This document shows, piece by piece, positions 48,293 through 63,371 of a stretch of DNA of 64,000 nt (its first letter is position 1; the number at the start of each line of letters is the position of its first letter). Under the pieces are notes generated by a model that saw nothing but the letters and a program-made list of their open reading frames with translations, did not search any database and was not told where the DNA came from. Origin of the DNA: Acidobacteriota bacterium (GTDB lineage: Bacteria; Acidobacteriota; Thermoanaerobaculia; Multivoradales; Multivoraceae); the NCBI GenBank assembly GCA_028877275.1, contig JAPPFP010000014.1, forward strand, positions 248,001-312,000. The letters run 5' to 3'. Both the position numbers and the translations under genes were made by a program.

Positions 48293-49279
48293 GTGAGCAC
48301 GACCGTCGACGTGCAGGGTCTTCGGCATGTCTACAAGGGCGGCACGGTCGCCCTCGACGGGGTCGACCTGTCGATCGGCGCGGGGCTGTTCGGCCTGCTC
48401 GGCCCGAACGGCGCCGGCAAGAGTACGCTGATGCGGATCGTCTGCACCCTGCTCAAGCCGTCCGCCGGCACCGTGACCGTCTTCGGTCACGACGCGGTCA
48501 AGGAACGCCGCGCCGTCCGCGCCCACCTGGGCTACCTGCCACAGGAGTTCGGCGCCTGGCGCCTGCACCGCGTCGAGGAGGTCCTGGACACCCTCGCCGA
48601 TCTCTCCGGCCTGGACGATCGCGCGGCCCGGCGCGAGCGCGTCGACACGGTCCTCGACAACGTCGGTCTAGGCGATGTCGCCCACCGCAAGGTGAAGAAG
48701 CTCTCCGGCGGCATGACCCGCCGTCTGGGCATCGCGCAGGCCCTGATCCACAGGCCGCGCCTGCTCGTGGTCGACGAACCGACCGTCGGCCTGGACCCTG
48801 AAGAGCGCATCCGGTTCCGCCAACTGATGGCCACGCTGGGTCGGGAGCGGACGATCATCCTCTCCACCCACATCGTCGCCGACCTGGGCACCGGCTGCAA
48901 CGACCTCGCGCTGCTCGACGGCGGTCGAGTCGTCTTCCGGGGCTCGCCGACACAGTTGCTCGAACGAGCAGCGGGCCAGGTGTTCGAGGTCACCCTGCCG
49001 ATGTCCGCGCCGCAGCCCGAAGGCGACTTCGAGATCGTCTCGCGCACCGCCAGCCAGAACGAGGCGACCTACCGCGCGGTGGCCGCACCGGGCGGCGTCC
49101 CGGAAGGCGCCCGCATCGCCGCTTCGCCCACCCTCGAGGAGGGCTACCTCGCCTTCATGGTCGCCCGCGGCCGCGCGGAGGCGCTGGTCAGCGACGAGCA
49201 CTTCGGCGAGCACGACGAACTCGAGTTGGCCGAGCCGCCACCCGTCGAGGACGGAACCGGGAAGGAGGCGCACCCGTGA
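48293..49279 (+). CDS. ABC-2-type transporter ATPase (first of operon)
   Basis: This 328-residue ATP-binding subunit has Walker A GPNGAGKS (37-44), Q-loop YLPQEFG (81-87), signature LSGGMTRR (137-144), Walker B LLVVDEPTVGLDPE (157-170) and switch His STHIVAD. A C-terminal extension ends in SPTLEEGYLAFMVARGRAEA, a tail typical of ABC-2/DrrA-like ATPases. It starts with GTG at 48293 behind a strong GAGGAGGA. Its stop overlaps the next gene's GTG by 4 bases; that gene encodes the likely membrane partner. The ATPase domain at the end of the RND fusion downstream is a clear relative. Confidence 0.85.
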   Translation: MSTTVDVQGLRHVYKGGTVALDGVDLSIGAGLFGLLGPNGAGKSTLMRIVCTLLKPSAGTVTVFGHDAVKERRAVRAHLGYLPQEFGAWRLHRVEEVLDTLADLSGLDDRAARRERVDTVLDNVGLGDVAHRKVKKLSGGMTRRLGIAQALIHRPRLLVVDEPTVGLDPEERIRFRQLMATLGRERTIILSTHIVADLGTGCNDLALLDGGRVVFRGSPTQLLERAAGQVFEVTLPMSAPQPEGDFEIVSRTASQNEATYRAVAAPGGVPEGARIAASPTLEEGYLAFMVARGRAEALVSDEHFGEHDELELAEPPPVEDGTGKEAHP

Positions 49280-52200
49280 TCTCGCTTGCCCACGTCTGGT
49301 CGCTCGCCCGAACCGAGATGCGGACCACTCGCCGCCTGTTCCGCTTCTGGCTGTTCTCGGGTGTCGCGATACTCACCTGCCTGCTGAGCTACGGCTACTA
49401 CTGGGTAATCCACGGGCTCTTCTCGTCCTTCTCGGCCACGATCGGTTCGATCAGCCCCAAGTTCCTCCTGAGCCAGACCGCCCAGTTCCAAACGACGATC
49501 CTGGGCCTCGGCGTCGTCTTCCTCGCCTTCGACCTGCGTGCCCGCGACCGTCGTGACCGGGTCATCGAGGTGCTCGACACACGGCCGTACTCGAACGCCG
49601 AACTCGTGCTCGGCCGCTTCCTGGGCACCGTACTCATGGTCTGGGGGGTGGCGTTTGCCGCGATGATGCTCATCCAGACCGTCGGCCATGCCGGATCCGC
49701 CTTTGGCTGGTACGTCGGCGAACCCGCCCTCTGGAGCTCCGTCTGGGCCTACCTCGTGCTCGAGGCACTGCCGGCGCTGGCGCTCTACGTCGCCTTCGTG
49801 CAAGTGGTTTCCCTGGTCAGCAACAACCGGTTGATCGCTGCCCTGGCGGGCATCGTGCTCGCCGCCGGCAGCACCTTCCTGACGTTCCGGGTCCCGGTCT
49901 ACCTCCTGCCGCCGCTGGCCCTGAACGGCGGTTTCATCAGCAACATCTCGGAGGTCGCGCCCCAGATCTGGACCGGCATCAACTTCGTGAACCGGGGCAG
50001 CCTCGCCCTGCTCGCCGCGGGCCTGCTGGCCACCGCGGTCGCCGTCCACCCCCGTCTCGACGACGCGAAGCGCCGCCTGTGGGGGATCGCCGGCGGTGCG
50101 GGCCTCGCGGCCGGCGCCGTGCTCATCTTTGCGGCAGTCACGTGGAGCGGCAACCAGATCGCCGAAAGGGACGCCTGGCGCGCCGCACACGACGAACGCC
50201 GGACCGAAGCGGTCGTCGACCTTCAGACGATCCGAGGCTCGGTCGACATCGAACGGGGCGGACGGCTCGCCCTCGACATCGAGGTTCACTTCCTGCCCTC
50301 GACCGGTTCCGGCGCCATGTTCAGCCTGAATCCAGGCCTCCGGGTGGAGGGCGTCTGGAACGCTGGCGGTGAGGCGCTCGACTTCAACCACGACAACGGC
50401 CTGCTCGACGTCGACCTGGGCTCGGCGCCACCGGCCGGCCAGGTCACCGGGGTCCGCGTACGCGCCCGCGGGCGGCCCGACCTCCGCTTCGCCTATCTGG
50501 ACTCGGCGATCGACTACAACACCGGGGAGTGGCAGGACGCGCAGATCGTCATGCTCGGCAACCTGAACGGCTCCGTCGAACGCAACCACGTCGCACTCCC
50601 CGCTTCGCTCGCGTGGCTCCCCCGCCCGGGCGCGTCCGTCGGCGCCGATGACCCGCGGCAGCGCTCACGGGACTTCTTCGAGCTGGACCTCGACGTCAGA
50701 ACCCCCTCCGGCTGGACGGTCGCGGGGCCGGGCATGGCGGAACCGACCGGCGAAGGTCAGCGATTCGCGCCCGCCGGTCCGGTGCCGGAGGTCATGCTGG
50801 TCGCCGGCAGATTCGACCGCCGGACGACACAGGTCGAAGGAGTCGAAGTCGAAGTCCTGTTCCACCCGAACCACCTGCGTAACCTCGACTACTTCGCCGA
50901 CGCACGAGCCGAAATCGAGCGGGTCGCCGCCGACCGCTTCGCCACTGCCCGCGAACTGGGAATGCCCTACCCCTACAGGCAGTTCAGCCTGGTCGAGGTG
51001 CCCTGGACGCTCCGTTCCTACGGCGGTGGATGGAGGATGGACACCGAGCGAGCGCCGCCCGGCATGCTGCTGATCAGCGAGAGCAGCCTGCCGACCGCGC
51101 GCTTCGAATTCCGGTTCCGCAATCCCGAGCGGTTCGAGGACGAAGAGGGCGGATTGCCTCGGGCCAAGGCGAACGGGCTGCAGCAGTTCTTCCGTCTCGA
51201 CTACTCCGGCGGCAACCTGGAGGCCGGCGGCATCCGCAACGTCTTCCTCTACCAGGCGGGCGCCCGAGGCCCGGAGGCGCTGGCACTGGAAGCGCTTTGC
51301 CACCACCTCGTGAACCAGTTGGTGAACGGCGGCGAGTCGTACTTCTCCGCTCACCTGTTCGACCGCGAGTTCGGCTGGACCATTGCGAACGTGATGCAAG
51401 GGGGGTTCACCGGCCAGTTCGCGGCCGGCGGCGGCTCGGCCGCCAGCGGCATCGTCAAGGCCCTCACGGACCGGCCCGGCGTCTGGGACGCGGTCCTCAG
51501 CAGCTCCCTTACCGAAATGGACGTGGAGGAGAACCCGAAGCAAGCCGTGAACGCGCTCTATCTCAAGACTGCTGCCCTGGCCACGGCAATACTCGACGGC
51601 GCCGGGAGGGAACGCACCGCAGCCATGATCGCCAACCTGCTGCGCGACCACCGGGGTTCGACCTTCACCGCCGCCGATCTCTACAGCGCCGCCCAAGAGG
51701 CGGGCGTGGATCTCGCCGGTCTGGTCGGCGACTTCCTGCACCAGACCGACCTGCCGGGTTTCCTGGTTTCCCCGGCGCAACTGGAGCGCCTGCCGGACGA
51801 CGACCAGGGTGGGCCGCAGTACCAGACCCGGTTGTTCGTCCGCAACGGCGAGGCGGCGCCCGGCCTGTTCCGGCTCCGCTATGCCGTCCGCGCCCCCGGT
51901 GGCGCGCGCTGGGATTCCAGCGAGCCGGTCCTGATCCCCGGGCACACGACGGTCGAGTTCGGACTCGTCACGTCCCGGCCGCCGGGAACGATGCTCGCCT
52001 CCCCGTACCTGTCTTTGAACCGGCGCGAATTCTCCATCGAGTTGCCGCGGCTCGACGACGAGACGATCTCGAACAGTGAGCCGCTTCGCGGTGTCCGGCC
52101 GGCCGACTGGACTCCGGCGTTCCTCGATGGCGGCGCCGGCACCATCGTGGTCGATGACCTGGATCCCGGCTTCGCAGTGGAAACGGACGAGGCCGAGGCG

Positions 52201-52809
52201 GACGGAATCCGGCTCCAGGGCGGTCTCGCCGGCTTTTTCGCACCTACCGTCGAGACCGATCAGGGGCTGCCCGTCTACTCGATCTTCAGCGGCACTCCGG
52301 CCGACTGGTCCCGTTACGAACAGCCTTCGAGCTGGGGACGCTACCGCCGGACGACCGCGCTCATCGCGAAAGGCGACGGAAGCCGCCGCGTCACCTACAC
52401 CACGGAACTTCCCGAAGCCGGCCGCTGGCGAGTGGAGTTGCATGTGCCCTCGCTTTCGCCAGTGCCGGGCGGCGGCGAGATACGCCGTGAAGTGCGGATT
52501 GGCGGCGGGGACGGTCCGCCCCGCGACGACGCTCGCGGCGCCCAAGTCAACGTGAGCTTCGGCCTGAGCCTCGGCACCTACGACCTGGAACTCAGGAACG
52601 GCGGCAGCTCGCGTCCCATCGACTTCGACGCCCAGGGGGCGGGCATCGGCTGGGCCGTGCTGGGCGACTTTGATCTCGCCCCCGGAACGGTGGAACTCGA
52701 GCTGAGCAACGACACGACCGGCAACGTCGTGGCCGCCGATGCCGTGCGCTTCGTGCGCCTCGACAACGGCGCCGGCGCCGACACGACCGGCGGCGGTGGG
52801 GCGCCGTGA
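49276..52809 (+). CDS. ABC permease fused to a peptidase-like periplasmic region
   Basis: The 1177-residue protein starts with about 310 residues of membrane domain. Roughly seven helices are visible, for example FWLFSGVAILTCLLSYGYYW and LFGIAGG-type late helices near residue 275. A long periplasmic region (about 310-880) resembles M1-family aminopeptidases by order of segments. The zinc site HExxH is absent: the expected place reads EALCHHLVNQLV, so it is probably inactive as a peptidase. The last 160 residues look like a golvesin-type carbohydrate-binding-like domain (SWGRYRRTTAL ... VVAADAVRFVRL). It overlaps the ATPase gene and the adaptor gene by 4 bases each. It may bind an envelope polymer or guide the substrate. 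Confidence 0.65.
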   Translation: MISLAHVWSLARTEMRTTRRLFRFWLFSGVAILTCLLSYGYYWVIHGLFSSFSATIGSISPKFLLSQTAQFQTTILGLGVVFLAFDLRARDRRDRVIEVLDTRPYSNAELVLGRFLGTVLMVWGVAFAAMMLIQTVGHAGSAFGWYVGEPALWSSVWAYLVLEALPALALYVAFVQVVSLVSNNRLIAALAGIVLAAGSTFLTFRVPVYLLPPLALNGGFISNISEVAPQIWTGINFVNRGSLALLAAGLLATAVAVHPRLDDAKRRLWGIAGGAGLAAGAVLIFAAVTWSGNQIAERDAWRAAHDERRTEAVVDLQTIRGSVDIERGGRLALDIEVHFLPSTGSGAMFSLNPGLRVEGVWNAGGEALDFNHDNGLLDVDLGSAPPAGQVTGVRVRARGRPDLRFAYLDSAIDYNTGEWQDAQIVMLGNLNGSVERNHVALPASLAWLPRPGASVGADDPRQRSRDFFELDLDVRTPSGWTVAGPGMAEPTGEGQRFAPAGPVPEVMLVAGRFDRRTTQVEGVEVEVLFHPNHLRNLDYFADARAEIERVAADRFATARELGMPYPYRQFSLVEVPWTLRSYGGGWRMDTERAPPGMLLISESSLPTARFEFRFRNPERFEDEEGGLPRAKANGLQQFFRLDYSGGNLEAGGIRNVFLYQAGARGPEALALEALCHHLVNQLVNGGESYFSAHLFDREFGWTIANVMQGGFTGQFAAGGGSAASGIVKALTDRPGVWDAVLSSSLTEMDVEENPKQAVNALYLKTAALATAILDGAGRERTAAMIANLLRDHRGSTFTAADLYSAAQEAGVDLAGLVGDFLHQTDLPGFLVSPAQLERLPDDDQGGPQYQTRLFVRNGEAAPGLFRLRYAVRAPGGARWDSSEPVLIPGHTTVEFGLVTSRPPGTMLASPYLSLNRREFSIELPRLDDETISNSEPLRGVRPADWTPAFLDGGAGTIVVDDLDPGFAVETDEAEADGIRLQGGLAGFFAPTVETDQGLPVYSIFSGTPADWSRYEQPSSWGRYRRTTALIAKGDGSRRVTYTTELPEAGRWRVELHVPSLSPVPGGGEIRREVRIGGGDGPPRDDARGAQVNVSFGLSLGTYDLELRNGGSSRPIDFDAQGAGIGWAVLGDFDLAPGTVELELSNDTTGNVVAADAVRFVRLDNGAGADTTGGGGAP

Positions 52810-53879
52810 GCGCGCGGCAATGGCTCGGCGCCGCGGCCGGCGCCTGCGTCCTGGTTCTGGGTTGCGACGCGACAGGCACCACGGACACCGTCGACTTCCT
52901 GGTGCCGGTGAGCGCATCCGAAGTCCGTACCGGCAACGTCGAAGACCTGATCGTCGCCACCGGCACCCTGCGCGCCGCGGAGAGCATCGTGCTCCAGGTC
53001 GAAACGCCAGGCCGGCTCCAGATCGGGCGGAACAACAACGGCAGCCGGCTTGCCGAGGGAGATCGCGTCGTCCCCGACCAGATGATCGCGGAAGTCACCG
53101 GCGAAGACGCGCGGCTCGCGGCCCGGGTCGAAGCGACGCATCAGGCCTACCAGGGCGCTCTCGCCGAACGCGACGCTCGCGCCAAGCTGTTCGAGCAGGA
53201 GTTGATCGCCGCCGAGGAGCTGCGCCGGGCGGAGACCGCGCTCGAAGACGCCAAGGCGACCTGGGAGCAGAGCCTGCTGACCGAGGACCGCGCCAGAATG
53301 CTGACCCCGATCGGGGGTGTGCTGATGGAGCTTGCCCGCGACACGAGCGGCATGCCGATCGCGGACGGCCAGCTCGTGTCGCCGGGATTCCAGGTCGCAC
53401 GGATTGCTCCGGTCGACTCCCTCGTGGCCGACATCGACCTGGTGGGTCCGGAGCTGGCGCGGGTCCACCCAGGCCAGAAGGGACGGCTCCGCCACTTCGC
53501 CTGGGAGGACATCACCTTCGAAGGAGCGGTCGTCCGCCTGTCTCCCGAAGTCGACCCCACAACCCACACCTTCCGCGCGGAAGTGGCGATCAACAACCCC
53601 GGCGGCCTGCTGCGGCCCGGCATGTTCGTCGAGGTGACCCTGGTCGTGGAGCAGCGCAACGCCGTGCCCGTCATCCCCCGCGAAGCGGTCACCGAGCGCG
53701 GCGGCCGGCGGGTCGTGTTCGTGCTCGACGGTCAGCGCGCCGTGCGGCGCGAGGTGGTGCTCGGTCTCGGCGACGACGAGATCGCGGAAGTCCGCCAGGG
53801 GCTCGAGATCGGCGAGCGGATCGTCGTGCGCGGACTCGAGACTCTGACCGACGGCACACGCGTCCGGGTGTCCGGGTAG
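52806..53879 (+). CDS. RND periplasmic adaptor lipoprotein (HlyD/MFP family)
   Basis: This 357-residue lipoprotein has signal LGAAAGACVLVLGC with the lipobox Cys at residue 20. The lipoyl half-motif GTLRAAESIVLQVETPGRL and a short alpha-hairpin (about 110-165: AERDARAKLFEQELIAAEEL) are visible. The second lipoyl half (MLTPIGGVLMELA) and the beta-barrel/membrane-proximal domains come next (VTLVVEQRNAVPVIPREAV). Such adaptors join an RND pump to an outer-membrane channel. It overlaps the previous gene by 4 bases and is followed by the RND gene after 27 bases. The hairpin is short. Confidence 0.85.
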   Translation: MSARQWLGAAAGACVLVLGCDATGTTDTVDFLVPVSASEVRTGNVEDLIVATGTLRAAESIVLQVETPGRLQIGRNNNGSRLAEGDRVVPDQMIAEVTGEDARLAARVEATHQAYQGALAERDARAKLFEQELIAAEELRRAETALEDAKATWEQSLLTEDRARMLTPIGGVLMELARDTSGMPIADGQLVSPGFQVARIAPVDSLVADIDLVGPELARVHPGQKGRLRHFAWEDITFEGAVVRLSPEVDPTTHTFRAEVAINNPGGLLRPGMFVEVTLVVEQRNAVPVIPREAVTERGGRRVVFVLDGQRAVRREVVLGLGDDEIAEVRQGLEIGERIVVRGLETLTDGTRVRVSG

Positions 53880-53906: not shown

Positions 53907-56900
53907 GTGATCGCTGCTCCCGGTGAAGGTTCCGGCCCGGCCCGTCTCGCCGCCCGCCGTCCGGTAGCGGTCACGGTCACCGCCCTGGCGTTCGGCCTCG
54001 TGGGATGGATGTCCTGGCGTGAACTGCCGATCGACCTTCTCCCCGATCTGCGCTCGCCGACGATCGTTGTCGCGGTGCGTTCCGGAGATCGACCCCCGAC
54101 CGAGATGGAACGGCTCTACGGCGAACAGGTCGAGCAGCGCCTGTTCACCGTGCGCGGCATCCGCGAGGTCCAGCAGGTCGCCCGCACGGGCCGGCTGATC
54201 GCCACGGTGCGTTTCGACTGGGAAGCCGACATGGACCTGGCGCTGATCGAGGTCCAGAAGGCGATCAACCCGGTCGCGGCCGACCCGGAAGTCGACGAGG
54301 TCCTGGTCCGCCAGCTCGACCCCAGGCAGTCGCCGGTCATGACCCTGGGGCTGGCCTCCGACCCTGGTGGCCCGGATCTCGCCGAACTCCGCCGTCTCGC
54401 GCGACGCCAGGTGGCGCCGGCCATGGAGCAGCTCGCCGACGTCGCCGAGGTGCGCGTGCTCGGCGGCCGCGAGCTGGAAGTGCGGGTGCGGGTCGACCGC
54501 TACCGCATGCAGGCGTTCGGCGTCACCCTCGGCCAACTGGAGCAGCGCCTGGTGGCCGAGAACGTCGACATCGACGCCGGCACCCTGGAGGATCGCGGCC
54601 AGGTCCTCCTGGTCCGCGGCATCTCCCGTTTCCGCAACCCCCGGGACGTGGAGCGGGTCGTCATCCGCTACCGGACCCAGGCGGGGACGGGTGGCCAGCA
54701 GGTCCGGCAACCGATCCGTGTCTCCGATGTCGCCGAGGTCGAAGTCGTCCACGGCGAGATCGACCACCTGGTACGCGTCAACGGCGGGGAGGGCGTCGGC
54801 CTCCAGGTGTTCAAGGAGGCCGGCGCGAACACGGTCGAGGTCTCGCGCACGGTGCGCGCGGCGCTCGAGAACCTGGCACTCGACCTGCCCCGGGTCCAGG
54901 TGTCGATGGTCAACGACGACGCGGCCCTGGTCGAGGACGCGATGGCCGACCTCCAGAACGCCGCCCTGGTCGGCATTGCGCTGGCCGTCGTCGTCCTGGC
55001 CCTGTTCCTGCGCTCCCTGGGGCCGACCGTGGTCGTCGCTTCCGCCGTGCCCGTTTCCCTCTTCGTCGCCCTGTTCGCGATGCGTCTCTGGGACCATTCG
55101 CTCAACATCATCACCCTGGCCGGGCTGGCACTCGGCGCCGGCATGCTGGTGGACAATGCGATCGTCGTCGTCGAGAGCATCCACCGGCGTCATCGCCCCG
55201 GGGCTTCGGCGGCCGACAGCTCCGCCCGGGGCACCGGCGAGGTCGCCGGAGCGATCGCCGCGTCGACGCTGACGACCTGCGTCGTCTTCCTGCCGGTCCT
55301 CTTCGTGCAGGGACTGGCCGCGCGGCTGATCGAGGGCATCGCCTTCACCGTCACCGCCTCGCTGGTCGCCTCGCTGGCGGTCGCGATGATGCTGATTCCA
55401 GCCCTGTCCCGCTGGTTCCTGCCGCGGGCCAAACCGGCGGCCGGAGTCGGAGAACCAGAACCCGCTGCCGACGTCACGCGGGCGCCCGATCCGGACGACG
55501 GAGAGGCGCGCCCCCTCGGCTGGGCCTTCGGCGCTCTCGAGCGGTTCGTCCTGTTCCTTCTCCGTCTGCGCTGGGTCGTGGTCGGCGCCGCCGTGCTCGC
55601 CGCCGCGGCCGCGGTGAACGTCCTTCTCGGGCTGGGCAGCGAACTTCTGCCGCCGGCTGACCCGCGGCAGTTCTCGGTGCGCATGGTCGGGCCGCCCGGT
55701 CAGCGAGTCGAAGCGACCGCCGCCGCCGTGTCCACGCTCGAGGAGGCGGTGCGCCAGGCTGCCGGCGAGCACCTCGAGGCGATCCAGGCCGAGGTCGGGC
55801 GGCTCCCTGAGGACGACCGGCTGGTCACCACGGAACTGACCGAGGAGAACACGGCCCGGCTTCTGGTCCGGCTGTCGGCCGAGGGCCCCACCGGCAGCCA
55901 GCTCGTGGGCGCGCTATCGCCGAACTTCACCGATCTGCCCGACACGGAAATCGAATGGGAGGTCGGAACGTCGGCGCTGGCCGAGGCCCTGGGCTCGTCC
56001 GGGCCGCCGATCGTGGTCGAGATCGCCGGTCAGTCGCTGGTCGACCTGCGCGCCGCGGCGACCAGCCTCCGCGACGCAATGGCCACCCGAGGAGAACTCT
56101 GGAACGTGCGCTCGTCCTTCGAGGGCGGCCCGCCCGAACTCCGCATCGAACTCGATCGCGCCATGGCCGACGGCCTGGGCGTCGATCTCGAGACGATTGC
56201 GCGCGTGCTCCAGTCCGCGCTCGACGGCCGCAGGGTCACGCTGCTGTCCGTCGGCGACGAGGAGCGCCATGTCGTCCTCTCCCTGCCCCAACCACGGCCC
56301 GAGGAACTCGCCGGACTGCGCTTCACGAGCAGCGCCGGAGCCGATCTCGTCCTCGGCCAGGTGGCGCGCTTCGTACCCACCGAGGGAGCGCGCGAGGTCT
56401 TCCGCCGAGACCAGCGGCGCGTGGCCCAGGTGACCGCCAGGATCGCCGAAGGCAGCGATTATCCGCGCGCCATTGCCGCCGCGAACGACGCGATCTCCAC
56501 GACCGACCTTCCCCCCGGCCTGATCGTGAGGCTGGCCGGCGAGGAGGAGGAGCGCCAGCGCGCCACGTCCGAGTTACGGCTCGCGGGCATCCTGGCGATC
56601 GTCCTCGTCCTGATGGTGCTTGCCGGGACGTTCGAGTCCCTGCTGCAACCCCTCACCGTGCTGTTCTCGATCCCGCTGGCCCTGGTCGGCGTCGCCTGCA
56701 CCATGGGTCCCATGGGCAGGCCGGTCGGCGTGATGGCGCTGCTCGGGCTAATCGTGCTCGCGGGTGTCGCGGTGAACGACGCCGTCCTCCTGATTGCCAC
56801 GGCGCGGCGGCTGATGGCCGCCGGCCTCGAGCGGCGAGCCGCCCTGGCACGGGCCGCCGCGATCCGGCTGCGGCCGATCCTGATGACGACCCTCACCACG

Positions 56901-57089
56901 GTGCTCGTCCTGCTGCCGCTCGCCGTCGGCGCCGGCGAGGCAGCCGAACTGCGAAGCCCGATGGCCTACACGATCATCGGCGGCATCGTGACCTCGACTG
57001 TCGGCTCGCTGCTGGTGCTGCCCTGCCTGTACCTGATTCTCGACTCTCTGAGGCTGACCCGGCGCCGCCGGCGGACCGCGGACGCCTGA
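53907..57089 (+). CDS. RND-family efflux permease
   Basis: This 1060-residue inner-membrane antiporter has the usual duplicated layout: TM1 at 18-35, a periplasmic domain, TM2-6, an intracellular helix, TM7, a second periplasmic domain and TM8-12. In TM4 the motif GAGMLVDNAIVVVES has D416 and N417 where classical pumps have Asp-Asp. In TM10 GVAVNDAVLLI has N957/D958 where AcrB has Lys. It is therefore a VDN-type RND, not an AcrB copy. GTG at 53907 has AGGAGG ten bases before it. It is followed 13 bases later by the RND-ABC fusion, so the two may form a heteromeric pump. Confidence 0.88.
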   Translation: MIAAPGEGSGPARLAARRPVAVTVTALAFGLVGWMSWRELPIDLLPDLRSPTIVVAVRSGDRPPTEMERLYGEQVEQRLFTVRGIREVQQVARTGRLIATVRFDWEADMDLALIEVQKAINPVAADPEVDEVLVRQLDPRQSPVMTLGLASDPGGPDLAELRRLARRQVAPAMEQLADVAEVRVLGGRELEVRVRVDRYRMQAFGVTLGQLEQRLVAENVDIDAGTLEDRGQVLLVRGISRFRNPRDVERVVIRYRTQAGTGGQQVRQPIRVSDVAEVEVVHGEIDHLVRVNGGEGVGLQVFKEAGANTVEVSRTVRAALENLALDLPRVQVSMVNDDAALVEDAMADLQNAALVGIALAVVVLALFLRSLGPTVVVASAVPVSLFVALFAMRLWDHSLNIITLAGLALGAGMLVDNAIVVVESIHRRHRPGASAADSSARGTGEVAGAIAASTLTTCVVFLPVLFVQGLAARLIEGIAFTVTASLVASLAVAMMLIPALSRWFLPRAKPAAGVGEPEPAADVTRAPDPDDGEARPLGWAFGALERFVLFLLRLRWVVVGAAVLAAAAAVNVLLGLGSELLPPADPRQFSVRMVGPPGQRVEATAAAVSTLEEAVRQAAGEHLEAIQAEVGRLPEDDRLVTTELTEENTARLLVRLSAEGPTGSQLVGALSPNFTDLPDTEIEWEVGTSALAEALGSSGPPIVVEIAGQSLVDLRAAATSLRDAMATRGELWNVRSSFEGGPPELRIELDRAMADGLGVDLETIARVLQSALDGRRVTLLSVGDEERHVVLSLPQPRPEELAGLRFTSSAGADLVLGQVARFVPTEGAREVFRRDQRRVAQVTARIAEGSDYPRAIAAANDAISTTDLPPGLIVRLAGEEEERQRATSELRLAGILAIVLVLMVLAGTFESLLQPLTVLFSIPLALVGVACTMGPMGRPVGVMALLGLIVLAGVAVNDAVLLIATARRLMAAGLERRAALARAAAIRLRPILMTTLTTVLVLLPLAVGAGEAAELRSPMAYTIIGGIVTSTVGSLLVLPCLYLILDSLRLTRRRRRTADA

Positions 57090-57102: not shown

Positions 57103-60100
57103 GTGAGAGCCGGTCTCGACACGCTCGCCATCCGCCGCCCGGTGGCGGTGACGATGTTCTTCGTCGCTCTCGTCATGCTCGGTGGGTTCGCCTGGCAGAG
57201 ACTGCCCGTCGAACTGTTCCCTGCTCTCACGGGCGATTCGCTTTACGTCAGCTTCTTCCGCCCGGGAAGCGAACCGGAGACGATCGAGCGGGAGATCCTG
57301 ATGCCGCTCGAGGCCCGGGTCCGCACGCTGCCCCGGGTGGCCGAGACCTGGGGCGAGATCAGCGGCGCCGGCGGCAGCTTCACCGTCCGCTTCGAACGCG
57401 GGGTCGATCTGAAGGTGCGGGAACTCGAGATGCGCCGCATCGCCGCCGATCTCGCACGAACCCAGCCGCGCGATGCCTTCCTGGACGTGCAGGCCGACGA
57501 CACCAGCATGTCCTCGAGCTTCGCCATGATCCTGCAGGTGACCGGCTCCGACGACGGGGACGCGCTGTACGACCTGGTCGACGAGATGATCACGCCCCGG
57601 CTGGCCGCGGTGCCGGGAGTCAGCCAGGCGATGCTGGGCGGCGGCGCCTCACGCCAGTTGACCGTGTGGGTCGACCCGAACCGGTGCGCCGCGCTCGGCG
57701 TGACGACGGAACAGGTGACCGCGGCGGTGCGCGGCGCGGCGGGACGCCTGCGCTACCTCGGCAGCCTGGAGGACGAGGCCGGACGGACGGCGGTGATGCT
57801 CGACGGCCGGCCTGCCGGTCCGGTGTCCATGGGCGAAGTCCGGGTCATCCCCAACCGTCCCGTCCTGGTCCGCCACGTGGCCGACGTGGAGATCGGCTCC
57901 GGCCGCCGCCAGATGCTGTACCGGGTCGACGGCGAGCCGTCGGTCGGCGTCCTGGTGTTCCAGGAGGAAGGCGCCAACCTGGTGCGACTCGGCCGCGATC
58001 TTCGCCGCCGGGTCGAGGAGATCAACGAGGAGTTCGCCCCACTCGGCATCCGCCTGCTCGTCAGCTTCGACGCCGCCGACCTGGTCGAAACGCAGATCGA
58101 CCGGCTGCGGAACCTCGGACTCTCGGGCTTCGGGATCGCGCTCCTGGTCCTGTTCCTCTTTCTGCGCCAGTGGCGCGCGGTGGCCGTGATCGCGGTCGCG
58201 GTGCCGGTCAGTCTGGCCGTTGCCCTTTCCTTTCTCTACGTGGCCGGCCTCTCGCTCAACCTCTTCACACTCTTCGGGCTCGCCATCGGTATCGGACTCA
58301 TCGTCGACAACAGCGTCGTCGTCTTCGAATCCGTCCAGCGGCGGCTGGAACGCGGAAGGAGTCCCGACGATGCGGCCGCGGGCGGTATTCGCCGCACGGG
58401 CCGCGCCATCATCGCCGCTTCCGTCACGACGGCGATCGTCTTCCTGCCGGCCGTCATCGTCGACCTGGAATCGACCCTGATGCAGAACATGATCGGGCTC
58501 CTGTCCCTGGCCATCCTGCTACCGCTGTTCGGTTCCCTGCTGGTGGCGATCGGCCTGGTGCCCCTGCTGGCGCGGCACCTCGCCGCACCGGCCGCGATCC
58601 GCCGGCTGGACAAGCTGCGTCAACGTCGCGAACGCTTCGGCGGTCAGGTGCCGCCGGATCCCACGCGGATTCTCTTCGCGGGCGTGCTCGCCTCCGCGCT
58701 GCGCCGGCCGGCGAGCTGGGTCACCGGTGTCGTCGTCGCGATCGTCCTGAGCGTGATCGCCGCGCTCTTCCTTGTCGCTTCCAGCGGTACTGGCCAGGCG
58801 CCGATCGCGGATCAGGTCCAACTCTCCGTCCGCCTGCCCGAAGGTCGCGGGAGCCTCGACTCGGCCGTCCGCGTCTTCGAACGTCTCGAGACGATCCAGG
58901 AAGTCGAGGGCGTCGACCGTGTGGAGAGCATGATCCGGGAAGAGGGAGGATCGCTCACCGTCCACCTGGTGGATGAAGACGAGCGGCCCCAGGATCTGAC
59001 GGCCAGGCGCGTACGGCAACTGCTGCGACCGCCGGCGCGACGCGCCGGCGCCGAGCTCCTCAATCCGGGTGAGGGGGACGGCCCGGGGGGACGTGGAGGC
59101 GGCGGCGGTGGCAGAGGGGGTGGCGCCCAGGAACTGCTCGGCGGCGGCCCTTCCCGCGTCGTACTTTCCGGCAACGACAACGAGCAGTTGACGGACCTCG
59201 CCTCCCAGGTCACCGAGCGGTTGCGGGAGATCGAGGGCATAGCGAGCGCCTACCCGGCGGTCCGCCCGGGGCCCGACGAACTTCACGTGAGTCCGAATCG
59301 GCGCGCCTTCGACACGTTCGGCGTGCTCCTGGACGAGGTGCTGCCGATGCTGAATCTGGCCGGCCGCGAGGGGACCAGGATCAACACCGGCTATCCGCTC
59401 GACAGCGGGAGGGAGTTGCCGATCGTCGTCCAACGGCTGGAAGACCAGCGCGCCGAGGCGGAGCCTTCCAGCGGCAGCGGCTTCAACCGCGACGTGTCGC
59501 TCAGCGGGCTGCAGCGGCTCCGCGTGTCGACCGAGGCCGGCGTGCTGCCGGTCGCTGCTCTGGCGCAGGTTCGGCAGGCGCCGCCCTCCCCGGTCATCAC
59601 CCATCACAACGGCGTCCGCGAGCGCGAGGTCTTCTACACCCTGTCGCCGGACGTGCCGCGCCGGGGCCCGGCGCGCGACGCCTTCGACCGCAACCTCGAC
59701 GAGGCGATCGCCAGTATCCACCGGCCCACTGGCACGACCATCGCGCTCGACCGCTCCGAGGAGAGCACGAACTGGTTCCGGCGCATCGCCGTCCCGGTCG
59801 TCCTGCTCGTCCTTCTCGTCCTGGCGGTGACGTTCGAGTCGCTGACGCTGCCGATCCTCGTCCTGATCGCGCTTCCCCTCGCCATGCTCGGTTCGGTGTG
59901 GGCTCTGGTGCTGACCGGCATCGGCTTCGAAGCGATGGCTCTGCTCGGCGCGCTGGTCCTGCTCGGGCTGGCAATCAACCCGGCCGTCCTGCTCGTCGAC
60001 CGAATGCAACAGCACACGTTGGGCGCCGGCTGGAGCGCGGGCGCGGCCGCCCTCGCCGCGGTCCGCGAACGCGCTCGCCCGGTCCTGATGACTTCCGCCA

Positions 60101-61920
60101 CGACGGTCGCAGCCCTGGCGCCCCTGTCCATCGCCACCGGGCGGGAAAACGAGCTTTGGCCGCCCTTCGCCACCTTCGTGATCGGCGGCCTCGTGACCGC
60201 GACCGTGCTGACGCTGCTTGTCATCCCCGTCGGCTTCGTCTTCCTGCGACGCCTCGACGAGCTGTTCAGCCGCGTCGGCCCCTGGGTCGTGCTGACCTGG
60301 CTCGGTGCCGTCATCGCGACGACCACCCCCCTGTTCGCGTTCGGCGTGATCGAGTCGATGTTCTGGCAGATCACGACCACGGTGCTGATCGCCGGAGCGT
60401 TGCTCGGCCTCACCGTGTGGCTGCTGCCGAAACCGCCGGCGCCCGAGCCGGAGACGGCCGCCGGTCCGCCCAGGCTCGTGGTCCGCCACCTGCGCAAGAC
60501 GTACGGCCTGCCCGGACCGGTGCGCCGGGCGCTGCGGGCTACCGCCGACTTCGCCAGACGGGTCGCGGCTCAGGGCGGTCAGGCTTTCGAACCGGCCGAC
60601 GCGCGCGACCGGCTGCTCCCTCTCCTGCTTCTCTTCGCCGGCGCCGTCACGCTGGCGGCGCGGATGCGCGGCGGTCTGATCATCATCGGCGTGCTGATCG
60701 CCATCCTGCTGATCGGCTCCCGGCTGCTGCGCGAGATCCGTCGCGCCCGTGGCCGCGCCGACGATCTCGGTCGCGTCGCGCCGGGCGGCGTCGAGGGCGT
60801 GTTGACGGCCCTGCTGCCATGGGCGCTTCTTGCCTGGCTGGTCGTCCCGGAGATGGTCGCCGATCCTGAAGTCGGAGGGTTTGTCGCGCTCGCCATCGTC
60901 TCCACGATCATCCTGCTGGTTCAGCTCGGGCGCCGCACGGCGCGGCTGGAGACGATGCGTCGGGAACAACGAACGTCCCGGCGGCGGCGCGCACGCGGCT
61001 GGCGTGGTCAGCTCTTGCGCCTCTGGCGCACCGCGGCCACAAGGGTGTTCGGCCTCGACCTGCCGATCGACACGGTCAGGGCCCTGGCCGCGGTGAGCTT
61101 CGAAGTCGAACGCGGCATGGTCGGAGTCCTCGGCCCGAACGGCGCCGGCAAGACGACCCTGCTCCGGCAGTTGACCGGCATTCTCGACTCGACCCGGGGC
61201 CGGATCACGCTCGGCGGCGTACCGTTGCTCAGGGTCCGAACGCGCCTCGCGCGCTACGTCGGCTACCTGCCCCAGGACGCCGGCCTGCCGCCCCGGCTGA
61301 CCGCGCGCCAGTACCTCGAGTACTACGCCGCCCTCTATCAGATCGACAAGTCGGAACGGGCCGACCGCATCTCGACTCTGTTACGTGAGGTCGGCCTGGA
61401 CAAGCGCGCGGACGAGCAGATCGGTGGCTACTCGGGCGGCATGCGGCAGCGCGTGGCGGTGGCCCGCACGCTGCTCCGGCTCCCTCCCATCATCGTCGTC
61501 GACGAACCGACCGTCGGCCTCGACCCCCGCGAGCGGGTTCGCTTCCGCAACCTCCTCTCACGGCTCGCGAAAGACCGGATCGTGCTCTTCTCGACCCACG
61601 TCGTCGAAGACGTGGCGGTGGCGTGCGATCGCGTCCTGGTGCTGAGCCGCGGCCGCATGGTGTTCGACGGCCATCCGGCCGCGCTGTCGCGGGAAGCCGA
61701 GGGCCGGGTGTGGTCGTGGCGGACGGCGGACGAAGAAGAAGTGCCTGAGCTCCCCGATGGCGCGGTGCTGGCCGACCGCAAGCCGGAACCCGACGGCACG
61801 AGTAGCCTTCGAGTCCTTGCCGCCGGCCGACCGGACGAGCGGGCCGCCCGCGCCGAGCCGACGCTGGAAGACGGCTACCTGTGGCTCGCGCGCGCGGCGC
61901 GCACCGAGGCGCCGGCATGA
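57103..61920 (+). CDS. RND efflux permease fused to an ABC ATPase domain
   Basis: This 1605-residue protein combines two transporter classes. Residues 1-1050 are a full RND permease. TM4 has IVDNSVVVFES (D402, N403) and TM10 has LAINPAVLLVD (N959, P960). A Gly-rich insert (656-680) lies in the second periplasmic domain. Two extra helices follow (1062-1083, 1087-1109). RLVVRHLRKTYG (1124-1135) looks like the first strand of an ABC ATPase. It is separated by about 190 residues containing four more hydrophobic helices (1171-1188, 1191-1209, 1234-1251, 1259-1276) from the remainder. The rest has Walker A GPNGAGKT (1344-1351), YLPQDAG, signature YSGGMRQR (1443-1450), Walker B IIVVDEPTVGLDP and switch His 1499. 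The tail EPTLEDGYL matches the first ATPase. The stop overlaps the ABC permease start by 4 bases. Confidence 0.85.
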   Translation: MRAGLDTLAIRRPVAVTMFFVALVMLGGFAWQRLPVELFPALTGDSLYVSFFRPGSEPETIEREILMPLEARVRTLPRVAETWGEISGAGGSFTVRFERGVDLKVRELEMRRIAADLARTQPRDAFLDVQADDTSMSSSFAMILQVTGSDDGDALYDLVDEMITPRLAAVPGVSQAMLGGGASRQLTVWVDPNRCAALGVTTEQVTAAVRGAAGRLRYLGSLEDEAGRTAVMLDGRPAGPVSMGEVRVIPNRPVLVRHVADVEIGSGRRQMLYRVDGEPSVGVLVFQEEGANLVRLGRDLRRRVEEINEEFAPLGIRLLVSFDAADLVETQIDRLRNLGLSGFGIALLVLFLFLRQWRAVAVIAVAVPVSLAVALSFLYVAGLSLNLFTLFGLAIGIGLIVDNSVVVFESVQRRLERGRSPDDAAAGGIRRTGRAIIAASVTTAIVFLPAVIVDLESTLMQNMIGLLSLAILLPLFGSLLVAIGLVPLLARHLAAPAAIRRLDKLRQRRERFGGQVPPDPTRILFAGVLASALRRPASWVTGVVVAIVLSVIAALFLVASSGTGQAPIADQVQLSVRLPEGRGSLDSAVRVFERLETIQEVEGVDRVESMIREEGGSLTVHLVDEDERPQDLTARRVRQLLRPPARRAGAELLNPGEGDGPGGRGGGGGGRGGGAQELLGGGPSRVVLSGNDNEQLTDLASQVTERLREIEGIASAYPAVRPGPDELHVSPNRRAFDTFGVLLDEVLPMLNLAGREGTRINTGYPLDSGRELPIVVQRLEDQRAEAEPSSGSGFNRDVSLSGLQRLRVSTEAGVLPVAALAQVRQAPPSPVITHHNGVREREVFYTLSPDVPRRGPARDAFDRNLDEAIASIHRPTGTTIALDRSEESTNWFRRIAVPVVLLVLLVLAVTFESLTLPILVLIALPLAMLGSVWALVLTGIGFEAMALLGALVLLGLAINPAVLLVDRMQQHTLGAGWSAGAAALAAVRERARPVLMTSATTVAALAPLSIATGRENELWPPFATFVIGGLVTATVLTLLVIPVGFVFLRRLDELFSRVGPWVVLTWLGAVIATTTPLFAFGVIESMFWQITTTVLIAGALLGLTVWLLPKPPAPEPETAAGPPRLVVRHLRKTYGLPGPVRRALRATADFARRVAAQGGQAFEPADARDRLLPLLLLFAGAVTLAARMRGGLIIIGVLIAILLIGSRLLREIRRARGRADDLGRVAPGGVEGVLTALLPWALLAWLVVPEMVADPEVGGFVALAIVSTIILLVQLGRRTARLETMRREQRTSRRRRARGWRGQLLRLWRTAATRVFGLDLPIDTVRALAAVSFEVERGMVGVLGPNGAGKTTLLRQLTGILDSTRGRITLGGVPLLRVRTRLARYVGYLPQDAGLPPRLTARQYLEYYAALYQIDKSERADRISTLLREVGLDKRADEQIGGYSGGMRQRVAVARTLLRLPPIIVVDEPTVGLDPRERVRFRNLLSRLAKDRIVLFSTHVVEDVAVACDRVLVLSRGRMVFDGHPAALSREAEGRVWSWRTADEEEVPELPDGAVLADRKPEPDGTSSLRVLAAGRPDERAARAEPTLEDGYLWLARAARTEAPA

Positions 61921-62594
61921 TCACGTTGCTTCGCACTTCGGCGGTGCTGCTTGGTGGACGCCGGTACTGGCTGCTGCCGCTGCTGCCCCTGGTGTGGCTG
62001 GCGGTACAGGCGCTCATGCTGGTAGCCGGCATGCGACCCGCGCTGGAGCCGGTGGCGGCGCAGAACAGCCTGATCGGCGTACCGGTAGCCGTGCTCGCCA
62101 TCTTCCTGGGCGGCCGGATCATCACCGGAGAACTCGATCAGCACAGTCTCGAGATTGCCTACACCGTGCCCGGAGGCGCCCATCGCGTCTGGCTCGGCAA
62201 GCTCGCCGCCGCGATCCTGATGCTCCTGGTCAGCCTGGTCCTCCTCGCCAGCGTGACCTATGCCTTCTTCACGGACTTCCCGGTTCTCCAGGGCCTGTAC
62301 GGAGCAACGCAGGGAGTCGTCTTCTACCTCGTTGCCGCCATGGGCTTCGCGACCCTGTTCCGCAGCGACGTGGCCGGCTCCCTCGCCACGATCGGCGTCC
62401 TCGGCCTCAACCGGCTCTTTGGCGCGTTCCGCGTCTCACCGTTCTGGAACCCGCTCGCCGTGCAAGAGGCGGACGCGGCGCAAATGCTTGCGCTGAACGT
62501 TCAGAACCGCATCGGCACCGCCCTCGCGATCGCGGCGATCGTCGCCCTGACGTTCACCCGCGCCGAGCGTCGGGAGAAGATGCTCAGCGGCTGA
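61917..62594 (+). CDS. small ABC-2-type permease (second of operon)
   Basis: The 225-residue membrane protein has six likely helices, for example LLPLLPLVWLAVQALMLVAG at the N-terminus and a final helix containing TALAIAAIVALTF. The segment GRIITGELDQHSLEIAYTVP followed by RVWLGKLAAA between helices is typical of ABC-2/CcmB-like permeases and contacts the ATPase. The ATG at 61917 overlaps the RND-ABC fusion stop, so it is the natural partner of that ATPase domain. Only one small permease is encoded here; a homodimer would complete a transporter. Confidence 0.75.
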   Translation: MITLLRTSAVLLGGRRYWLLPLLPLVWLAVQALMLVAGMRPALEPVAAQNSLIGVPVAVLAIFLGGRIITGELDQHSLEIAYTVPGGAHRVWLGKLAAAILMLLVSLVLLASVTYAFFTDFPVLQGLYGATQGVVFYLVAAMGFATLFRSDVAGSLATIGVLGLNRLFGAFRVSPFWNPLAVQEADAAQMLALNVQNRIGTALAIAAIVALTFTRAERREKMLSG

Positions 62595-62686
62595 AGTCGC
62601 CGCCGCCACTCCTCCGGGTCGGCAGCTCAGCGGCGGGACACAAACCCAAGATGCCACCAGGTCAGTCAATGGTAGACTCTGCACTT

Positions 62687-62980
62687 ATGGTAGACGGCCT
62701 GACAACCCCACCCGCACAAACGACGGCAGTCGTGGACTCCGCAGGGAGGCTCGTGGTGCCCGCCCACTACCGCGCGGCCCTCGGTTTTCGACCGCGGCAG
62801 GAGGTCGTCCTGGATCTCGATGGTGACACGATCCGGATAACCACCGTTGAGACCGCGCTGGACGCCGCGATTTCCCGCGCCCAGGCCCTGGCCCGCAAGT
62901 ACGACGAGAAGCTGGGACGGACAGGAAGTGCCGTCGACGAGTTCATCGCGGAGCGACGGAGAGAGGCGGCGCGAGACTGA
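62687..62980 (+). CDS. AbrB/MazE-family antitoxin
   Basis: This 97-residue antitoxin has an AbrB-type DNA-binding segment (AVVDSAGRLVVPAHYRAALG, then RQEVVLDLDGDTIRITTVE) and a charged helical C-terminus (SAVDEFIAERRREAARD). Three in-frame ATGs compete (62651, 62669, 62687). I prefer 62687, which keeps the usual short lead before the beta-hairpin; none has a good ribosome-binding sequence. The stop is followed directly by the PIN toxin gene (1-base gap). It lies 92 bases after the efflux operon. Confidence 0.75.
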   Translation: MVDGLTTPPAQTTAVVDSAGRLVVPAHYRAALGFRPRQEVVLDLDGDTIRITTVETALDAAISRAQALARKYDEKLGRTGSAVDEFIAERRREAARD

Positions 62981-62981
62981 C

Positions 62982-63371
62982 GTGGCCCATGTCCTGCTTG
63001 ACGCCTCGGCCGTCCTGGCCATGATCTGGCGCGAACCTGGGGCCGAGGTCGTCGGAGCCGCCGTGCGCGACGGCGCGGCAATCTCCACAGTGAACCTGGC
63101 TGAGGTTGCCGCCCTCCTCCACTATCGTGGGTGGAGAGGCTCCGACGTCCAGAGCACTCTGGCGGCGTTCAGGATGGACACACTGCCTTTCGACTCTGAC
63201 GTGGCCCTGTCAAGCGGCGCCCTGCGCCCAGCAACGGCGCCAGCGGGCCTCGGACTGGGCGACCGCGCCTGCCTCGCCACCGCGGCGCACTTCAAGTTGC
63301 CGGTCCTCACCACCGACAGGTCGTGGCTGCGAGTCGATCTGGAGGGAATCGAGGTTCGGGTGATCCGCTGA
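62982..63371 (+). CDS. PIN-domain toxin (VapC family)
   Basis: This 129-residue predicted ribonuclease has the acidic residues VLLDASAVLAMIW (Asp), TVNLAEVAALLHY (Glu), LGLGDRACLATA (Asp) and PVLTTDRSWLRV (Asp), all in the expected order. GTG at 62982 starts immediately after the antitoxin stop. The pair looks complete and functional, unlike the two damaged modules at the left end. It converges with the partial gene at the window edge. Confidence 0.85.
   Translation: MAHVLLDASAVLAMIWREPGAEVVGAAVRDGAAISTVNLAEVAALLHYRGWRGSDVQSTLAAFRMDTLPFDSDVALSSGALRPATAPAGLGLGDRACLATAAHFKLPVLTTDRSWLRVDLEGIEVRVIR

Follow-up and report, generated by a model that had tools for sequence, protein, structure and literature searches.

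An RND permease and an ABC ATPase joined in one conserved reading frame: a putative hybrid exporter

A single reading frame in the window, by which we mean the whole 64,000-nucleotide stretch of DNA that was analysed, runs from an RND permease into an ABC ATPase, and this covalent joining of the two is real. Judged by their sequences, the parts of the chain and of its locus belong to known families, and the new element is the joined chain together with its six-gene context. From this evidence the fusion looks like a real, undescribed hybrid exporter. A full-text literature search of open-access papers found no published description of an RND-ABC fusion, and within that literature the remark of the first-pass annotation that it knew of no described system with this covalent joining holds. 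The genes of the locus, which in the window overlap or sit at most 30 bases apart, are given below.

48293-49279, + strand: ABC1, a stand-alone ABC ATPase of 328 aa, first gene of the conserved locus (ABC_tran, E 3e-31)
49276-52809, + strand: large ABC-2 permease of 1177 aa (Pfam ABC2_membrane_2, weak; C-terminal Golvesin_C)
52806-53879, + strand: periplasmic adaptor, or membrane fusion protein (TIGR01730 RND_mfp above cut-off; HlyD_D23)
53907-57089, + strand: RND2, a separate RND permease and proposed heterotrimer partner (ACR_tran, E 3.5e-198)
57103-61920, + strand: RND-ABC fusion of 1605 aa with a GTG start (open reading frame, Pfam, genus comparison)
61917-62594, + strand: small ABC-2-like permease of 225 aa (ATG at 61917, 4-base overlap with the fusion stop)

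The fusion frame is open through all 1605 codons without interruption, and Pfam models match on both sides of it (ACR_tran on residues 8-1048, model positions 4-1020, E 1e-145; ABC_tran on residues 1330-1470, E 6e-28), which bears out the continuous RND-to-ATPase frame that had been read from the letters. Its third-position G+C of 0.88 is similar to that of the neighbouring genes. Two findings had been named beforehand that would speak against the fusion, namely a frame break or assembly join between about 60250 and 61000, and absence of the fusion from close relatives. Over that interval the genus genomes with adequate contigs, including a single-contig genome, are unbroken. As to the relatives themselves, 16 other species of the genus carry the fusion as a single frame at 73-95% identity (15 at full length, G008 up to residue 1368), whereas one genus genome (G020, 88% complete) gave no match to the fusion, for which its incompleteness is a possible reason. 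Among the genus carriers of the unbroken fusion, the genome G019 is a single contig and G009 consists of three, and in three further species the fusion is broken solely at contig ends.

Pairwise dN/dS values within the genus were ~0.05-0.4 in the linker, the insert and the nucleotide-binding domain (NBD) and 0.08-0.24 in the RND half, with a single outlier of 0.48 in the linker that is based on very few synonymous changes; such values indicate that the joined frame is selected as a protein. A split at the RND/NBD junction was found in none of the relatives examined, and the shortened frames among them stop at contig ends. An assembly join is thus ruled out by the unbroken frame in genus genomes, one-contig ones included, by purifying selection through the junction and by the lack of any junction split. 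That two adjacent genes were wrongly joined by annotation or assembly has no finding in its favour and is hardly credible, given that the same frame recurs in one-contig genomes, in many species and apparently in three phyla, and that the junction is under purifying selection. In a separate observation, the fusion frame of locus L240 (G449) is interrupted once, within the RND half and away from the junction, through error or decay.

Along the chain, the following segments were distinguished.

57103-60252, + strand: RND half, residues 1-1050 (ACR_tran, alignment to OqxB, motif table)
60286-60426, + strand: two extra transmembrane (TM) helices after the RND half, residues 1062-1108 (hydropathy; helices 2-24 and 31-57 of the model)
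60466-60507, + strand: strand resembling an NBD start, PPRLVVRHLRKTYG, residues 1122-1135, parted from the NBD by the insert
60610-60927, + strand: core of the TM insert, residues 1170-1275, with ~4 predicted helices (hydropathy; AF2 helices of low to moderate confidence)
61039-61692, + strand: ABC nucleotide-binding domain, residues 1313-1530, with its motifs all intact (ABC_tran, AF2 pLDDT, Foldseek)
61693-61917, + strand: C-terminal extension with LEDGYLWL, strands and a final helix in the model, resembling ABC-2-type ATPases

The RND half shows the AcrB-type domain order at full length over ~1020 positions, as in HAE-1 permeases, with 12 TM helices by homology. An HAE-1 permease would end after TM12 and carry no ATPase, whereas here 555 residues follow the RND half and hold two and then ~4 TM helices and an NBD. 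The view of residues 1051-1312 as a plain linker had to be given up, as hydropathy and the model instead place there two TM helices, the strand resembling an NBD start and the ~4-helix insert. This strand reads LVVRHLRKTYG in part, with a near-invariant L-K-Y-PG in an alignment of 12 diverse homologues, and the whole insert, of ~180 residues and ~4 helices, lies ahead of Walker A. In a group of fusions lacking the insert (type C, see below), the NBD-start sequence is contiguous with the Walker A strand, which argues that in the insert-bearing types A, to which the window belongs, and B the insert splits a putative first strand from the NBD body. AlphaFold sets residues 1313-1322 at the place of the first strand and gives residues 1122-1135 a pLDDT of ~35, with only two rows covering the region. 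From the even helix numbers, all parts of the NBD would be cytoplasmic. Elsewhere in the chain, a Gly-rich low-complexity stretch, GPGGRGGGGGGRGGG, occupies residues 655-675 in the periplasmic part of the RND half, and a Gly-rich stretch is found at a similar place in the type B fusions L077 and L081.

The fused NBD is, by its sequence motifs, catalytically complete. Walker A (GPNGAGKTT, residues 1344-1352), the signature (YSGGM, residues 1443-1447), Walker B (IIVVDE, ending in D1467/E1468) and the switch His (H1499) were located as the first-pass annotation had claimed, and they are invariant or almost so in the 12 diverse homologues, down to 48% identity. The features of an ABC-2-type NBD are all there, namely Walker A, Q-loop, signature, Walker B with Glu, D-loop and H-loop, and the L-DGY--L of the C-terminal extension is conserved in the alignment of these homologues. 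The structure prediction that had been proposed as a check folds the NBD confidently, with a pLDDT of 80-95 from residue 1313 to ~1330 and of ~95 from about residue 1330 onwards. Foldseek matched the domain to 4yer, NosF and 1vpl.

The label 'proton-type' that the RND half had been given is only partly secured. By alignment to OqxB and the motif table, the AcrB residues D407, R971 and T978 are kept as D402, R990 and T997, whereas Asn stands in place of D408 (N403) and K940 (N959). D402 and N403 lie in TM4, N959 and P960 in TM10, and R990 and T997 in TM11; P960, next to N959, is invariant in type A. Ordinary RND pumps encoded in this genome (L199, L201, L204) show the same Asp-Asn/Asn pattern, and thus the substitutions are no proof of lost proton coupling. 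A loss of coupling through D408N/K940N was dropped as a candidate on these grounds.

Nearly all fusions lie in one conserved locus, which in types A and B runs in the order ABC ATPase, large ABC-2 permease, adaptor, RND2, fusion and small ABC-2-like permease. Orthologues of ABC1, whose Walker A, Walker B and signature are intact, stand upstream of the fusions in L022, L024, L230, L231 and L232. A partner RND adjoins every fusion with a readable upstream gene, the exceptions being L071 (masked) and L088 (cut at a contig end). The nearest solved chain to RND2 is MdtB. In the tree, the fused RND halves form one clade and the partner RNDs of types A and B another, which indicates that the pair is co-inherited. 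The adaptor and the outer-membrane factor (OMF) that a tripartite efflux system requires are both encoded in the genome, the adaptor in the operon and the OMF elsewhere: the window operon holds no OMF gene, and TolC-family channels are encoded at other sites. In the type B locus L078 an OMF gene lies within the locus.

The suggestion that the RND chain serves to recruit the neighbouring ABC permease has gained support. That small permease is conserved directly 3' of the fusion in types A and B, and 17 of the 18 members of its family match ABC2_membrane_2, mostly weakly (best E 2e-6; the window's own gene, at E 0.004, falls below the curated cut-off). An ABC-2-like motif, (E/D)-x-D-x-x-(T/S)LE...W, is present in the small permease of nearly every A or B member, and the predicted structure has a pLDDT of 47. 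Directly 3' of this gene, positions 62666-63371 read as an AbrB-type antitoxin and PIN-domain toxin pair; elsewhere in the genus that place is taken by a further copy of the small permease (L022, 14935-15624; L023, 14154-14831).

The large permease, with orthologues in L070, L072-L076, L089 and L230-L232, contains a degenerate region resembling M1 peptidases, and the L230 orthologue gives a weak Peptidase_M1 match. ABC-2 domains joined to a peptidase are known from the ABC-2/M1-peptidase fusion family, TC 3.A.1.145 (PMC3924187). The large permease likewise combines an ABC-2 domain with a peptidase-like region, but it differs in that HExxH is absent from the members tested, including the window gene, and in that Golvesin_C is added. 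If the large permease is kin to that family, the absence of HExxH suggests that its peptidase region is probably inactive. The large permease (49276-52809), with its Golvesin_C domain and degenerate M1-like region, is conserved along with the fusion.

Recurrence in distinct species, which had been proposed as a check, was found in the genus, in classes of the phylum other than the window's own, among Pseudomonadales, and in the phylum to which a Gemmatimonadetes-labelled genome belongs. In a phylum sample of 396 genomes, with matches required over linker, insert and NBD, full matches were obtained in families f20 and f40, with frames of 1575-2004 codons and with one-contig genomes among them (G129 and G387; L071, from G387, contains a masked run). 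More distant fusions with the insert at the same place, here type B, come from f44, f73 and f18, and types A and B together reach other classes of the window's phylum. Within the window's own order, type A was confined to the genus, apart from one fragment at a contig end elsewhere in the same family, which makes the distribution patchy. A Pseudomonadales MAG (JAKUTH010000058.1, L089) carries a type A fusion of 1637 codons that reaches 47% identity in its C-terminal part, and the fusion, or a piece of it at a contig end, is also present in ten more relatives of this MAG. In a wide sample of that MAG's phylum the fusion was found in 1 of 398 genomes, that genome only. A genome in the phylum of the Gemmatimonadetes-labelled MAG carries a type B fusion of 1591 codons. 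The fusions thus apparently span three phyla, as judged from the other two samples, in which no window-like genus members occur. Apart from these, a frame of more than 1000 codons in L222 (G970) has an NBD mid-frame and no RND match.

Type C fusions (L082-L088), from the window's order and class, have frames of 1305-1851 codons in which the RND half is joined directly to the NBD. They are without the TM insert, and their RND half is poorly conserved, with ACR_tran matching only the first third. Every relay residue in TM4, TM10 and TM11 is gone, and the NBD is intact. The type C loci that were read contain the same genes; in two of them the small permease precedes the adaptor, and in G304 none was seen. 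NBD trees set type C apart from A and B, and the first of them suggested an independent origin of the type C fusion. A single clade that takes in every fusion was not rejected by an AU test (p 0.32), and what the loci share in gene content argues for a common origin; an independent origin is no more than a candidate.

Compared with known systems, the locus is like the heteromeric HAE-1 pumps MdtABC and MuxABC in having an adaptor and two different RND permeases in one operon. It differs in that MdtB and MdtC are without an ATPase and their operon without ABC permeases, whereas the fusion has an NBD and its locus ABC permeases, and in the N959-P960 of the fused half at the K940 position. With ABC-2 exporters that have DrrA/GldA-like ATPases (NosFY, TM_1403), the fused NBD shares sequence, fold, C-terminal extension and an adjoining ABC-2-like permease, but here an RND permease precedes it in the same chain and a TM insert breaks it up on its upstream side. 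MacAB-TolC likewise combines an ATP-driven transporter with an adaptor and an outer-membrane channel. MacB consists of an NBD on a 4-TM FtsX-like permease and has no RND half. Unlike the N-terminal NBD of MacB, that of the window chain is C-terminal, its membrane part is ACR_tran and the neighbouring permease is ABC-2-like, which places the chain outside the MacB family.

An RND pump is built as a trimer, and an ABC motor requires a pair of NBDs. The reading that we favour, held tentatively and at somewhat less than an even chance, is that the locus encodes a single exporter spanning the envelope, made up of an RND pump with an ABC-2-type motor covalently anchored to it. RND2 and the fused RND half would form a heterotrimer, and in the simplest stoichiometry two fused chains and one RND2 would supply exactly two NBDs for the ABC dimer. 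This dimer would drive two copies of the small permease, a contact suggested by gene order and family signature, and the substrate would in this step cross or leave the inner membrane. On the periplasmic side, the RND trimer tethered to the motor could then pick it up and send it over the outer membrane by way of the adaptor and a TolC-type channel whose gene lies elsewhere. This second step would be powered by the proton gradient in RND2 and perhaps also in the fused RND half. MdtB2C provides a precedent for an RND heterotrimer with divided roles (PMC4338810).

What favours such a relay of substrate from motor to pump is that two fused chains and one RND2 would give two NBDs for two small permeases. 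Additionally, every NBD motif is kept in one frame, types A and B retain the locus content across lineages and type C retains it with a relocated small permease, and the small permease family keeps its ABC-2-like motif. The joint inheritance of fused halves and partner RNDs, with the partner beside the fusion, agrees with it, as do the TolC-family channels elsewhere in the genome and the OMF gene in a type B locus. Against it, the stand-alone ABC1, which is also intact, could pair with the fused NBD instead. The two would then sit under the large and small permeases as one hetero-ABC-2 exporter, of which a single fused chain docks on the RND trimer. ABC1 and the large permease are almost constant companions of the fusion, but the degenerate site frequent in heterodimers is seen in neither NBD, and the fusion gene adjoins the small permease whereas ABC1 adjoins the large one; we consider this arrangement quite improbable.

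An unlikely though somewhat stronger contender is a single pump energised twice, in which ATP binding and hydrolysis at the fused NBD directly drives or gates the RND cycle and supplements or replaces the proton relay in the fused protomers. One chain would then couple primary (ATP) and secondary (proton) energy, with the NBD taking the place of the relay in type C. The type C halves, which are without relay residues although their N-terminal part is still recognisable as RND and the NBD is intact, are in keeping with this, as are the D-N-N triad with adjoining Pro in the window chain and the extra helices that tie the NBD to the RND TM bundle. A self-sufficient RND-ATPase would need no small ABC-2-like permease, however, and one is retained in A, B and two C loci; moreover, RND2 keeps the common Asp-Asn/Asn relay, and no coupling route from NBD to RND is known. 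We give a similarly low probability to the fusion being a tether only, which sets the stoichiometry and co-localisation of an independent RND pump and ABC-2 exporter without mechanical coupling. Each half is like its stand-alone family and the partner genes for two complete transporters are all present, but no relative shows a natural split at the junction, and types A and B both retain the helix-bearing insert in the NBD, which points to a role beyond that of a leash.

Efflux systems are commonly sorted by their source of energy, with RND pumps in one class and ABC exporters in another. With both classes in one conserved chain, the hand-over from an ATP step at the inner membrane to an envelope-spanning step becomes testable by point mutations in one protein, and so does ATP drive of the RND fold. 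The type C fusions, without relay residues, raise the question of whether an RND protomer can work without protons. If the NBD does drive the RND cycle, the fusions would represent a new transporter class, in which the RND fold is powered by ATP.
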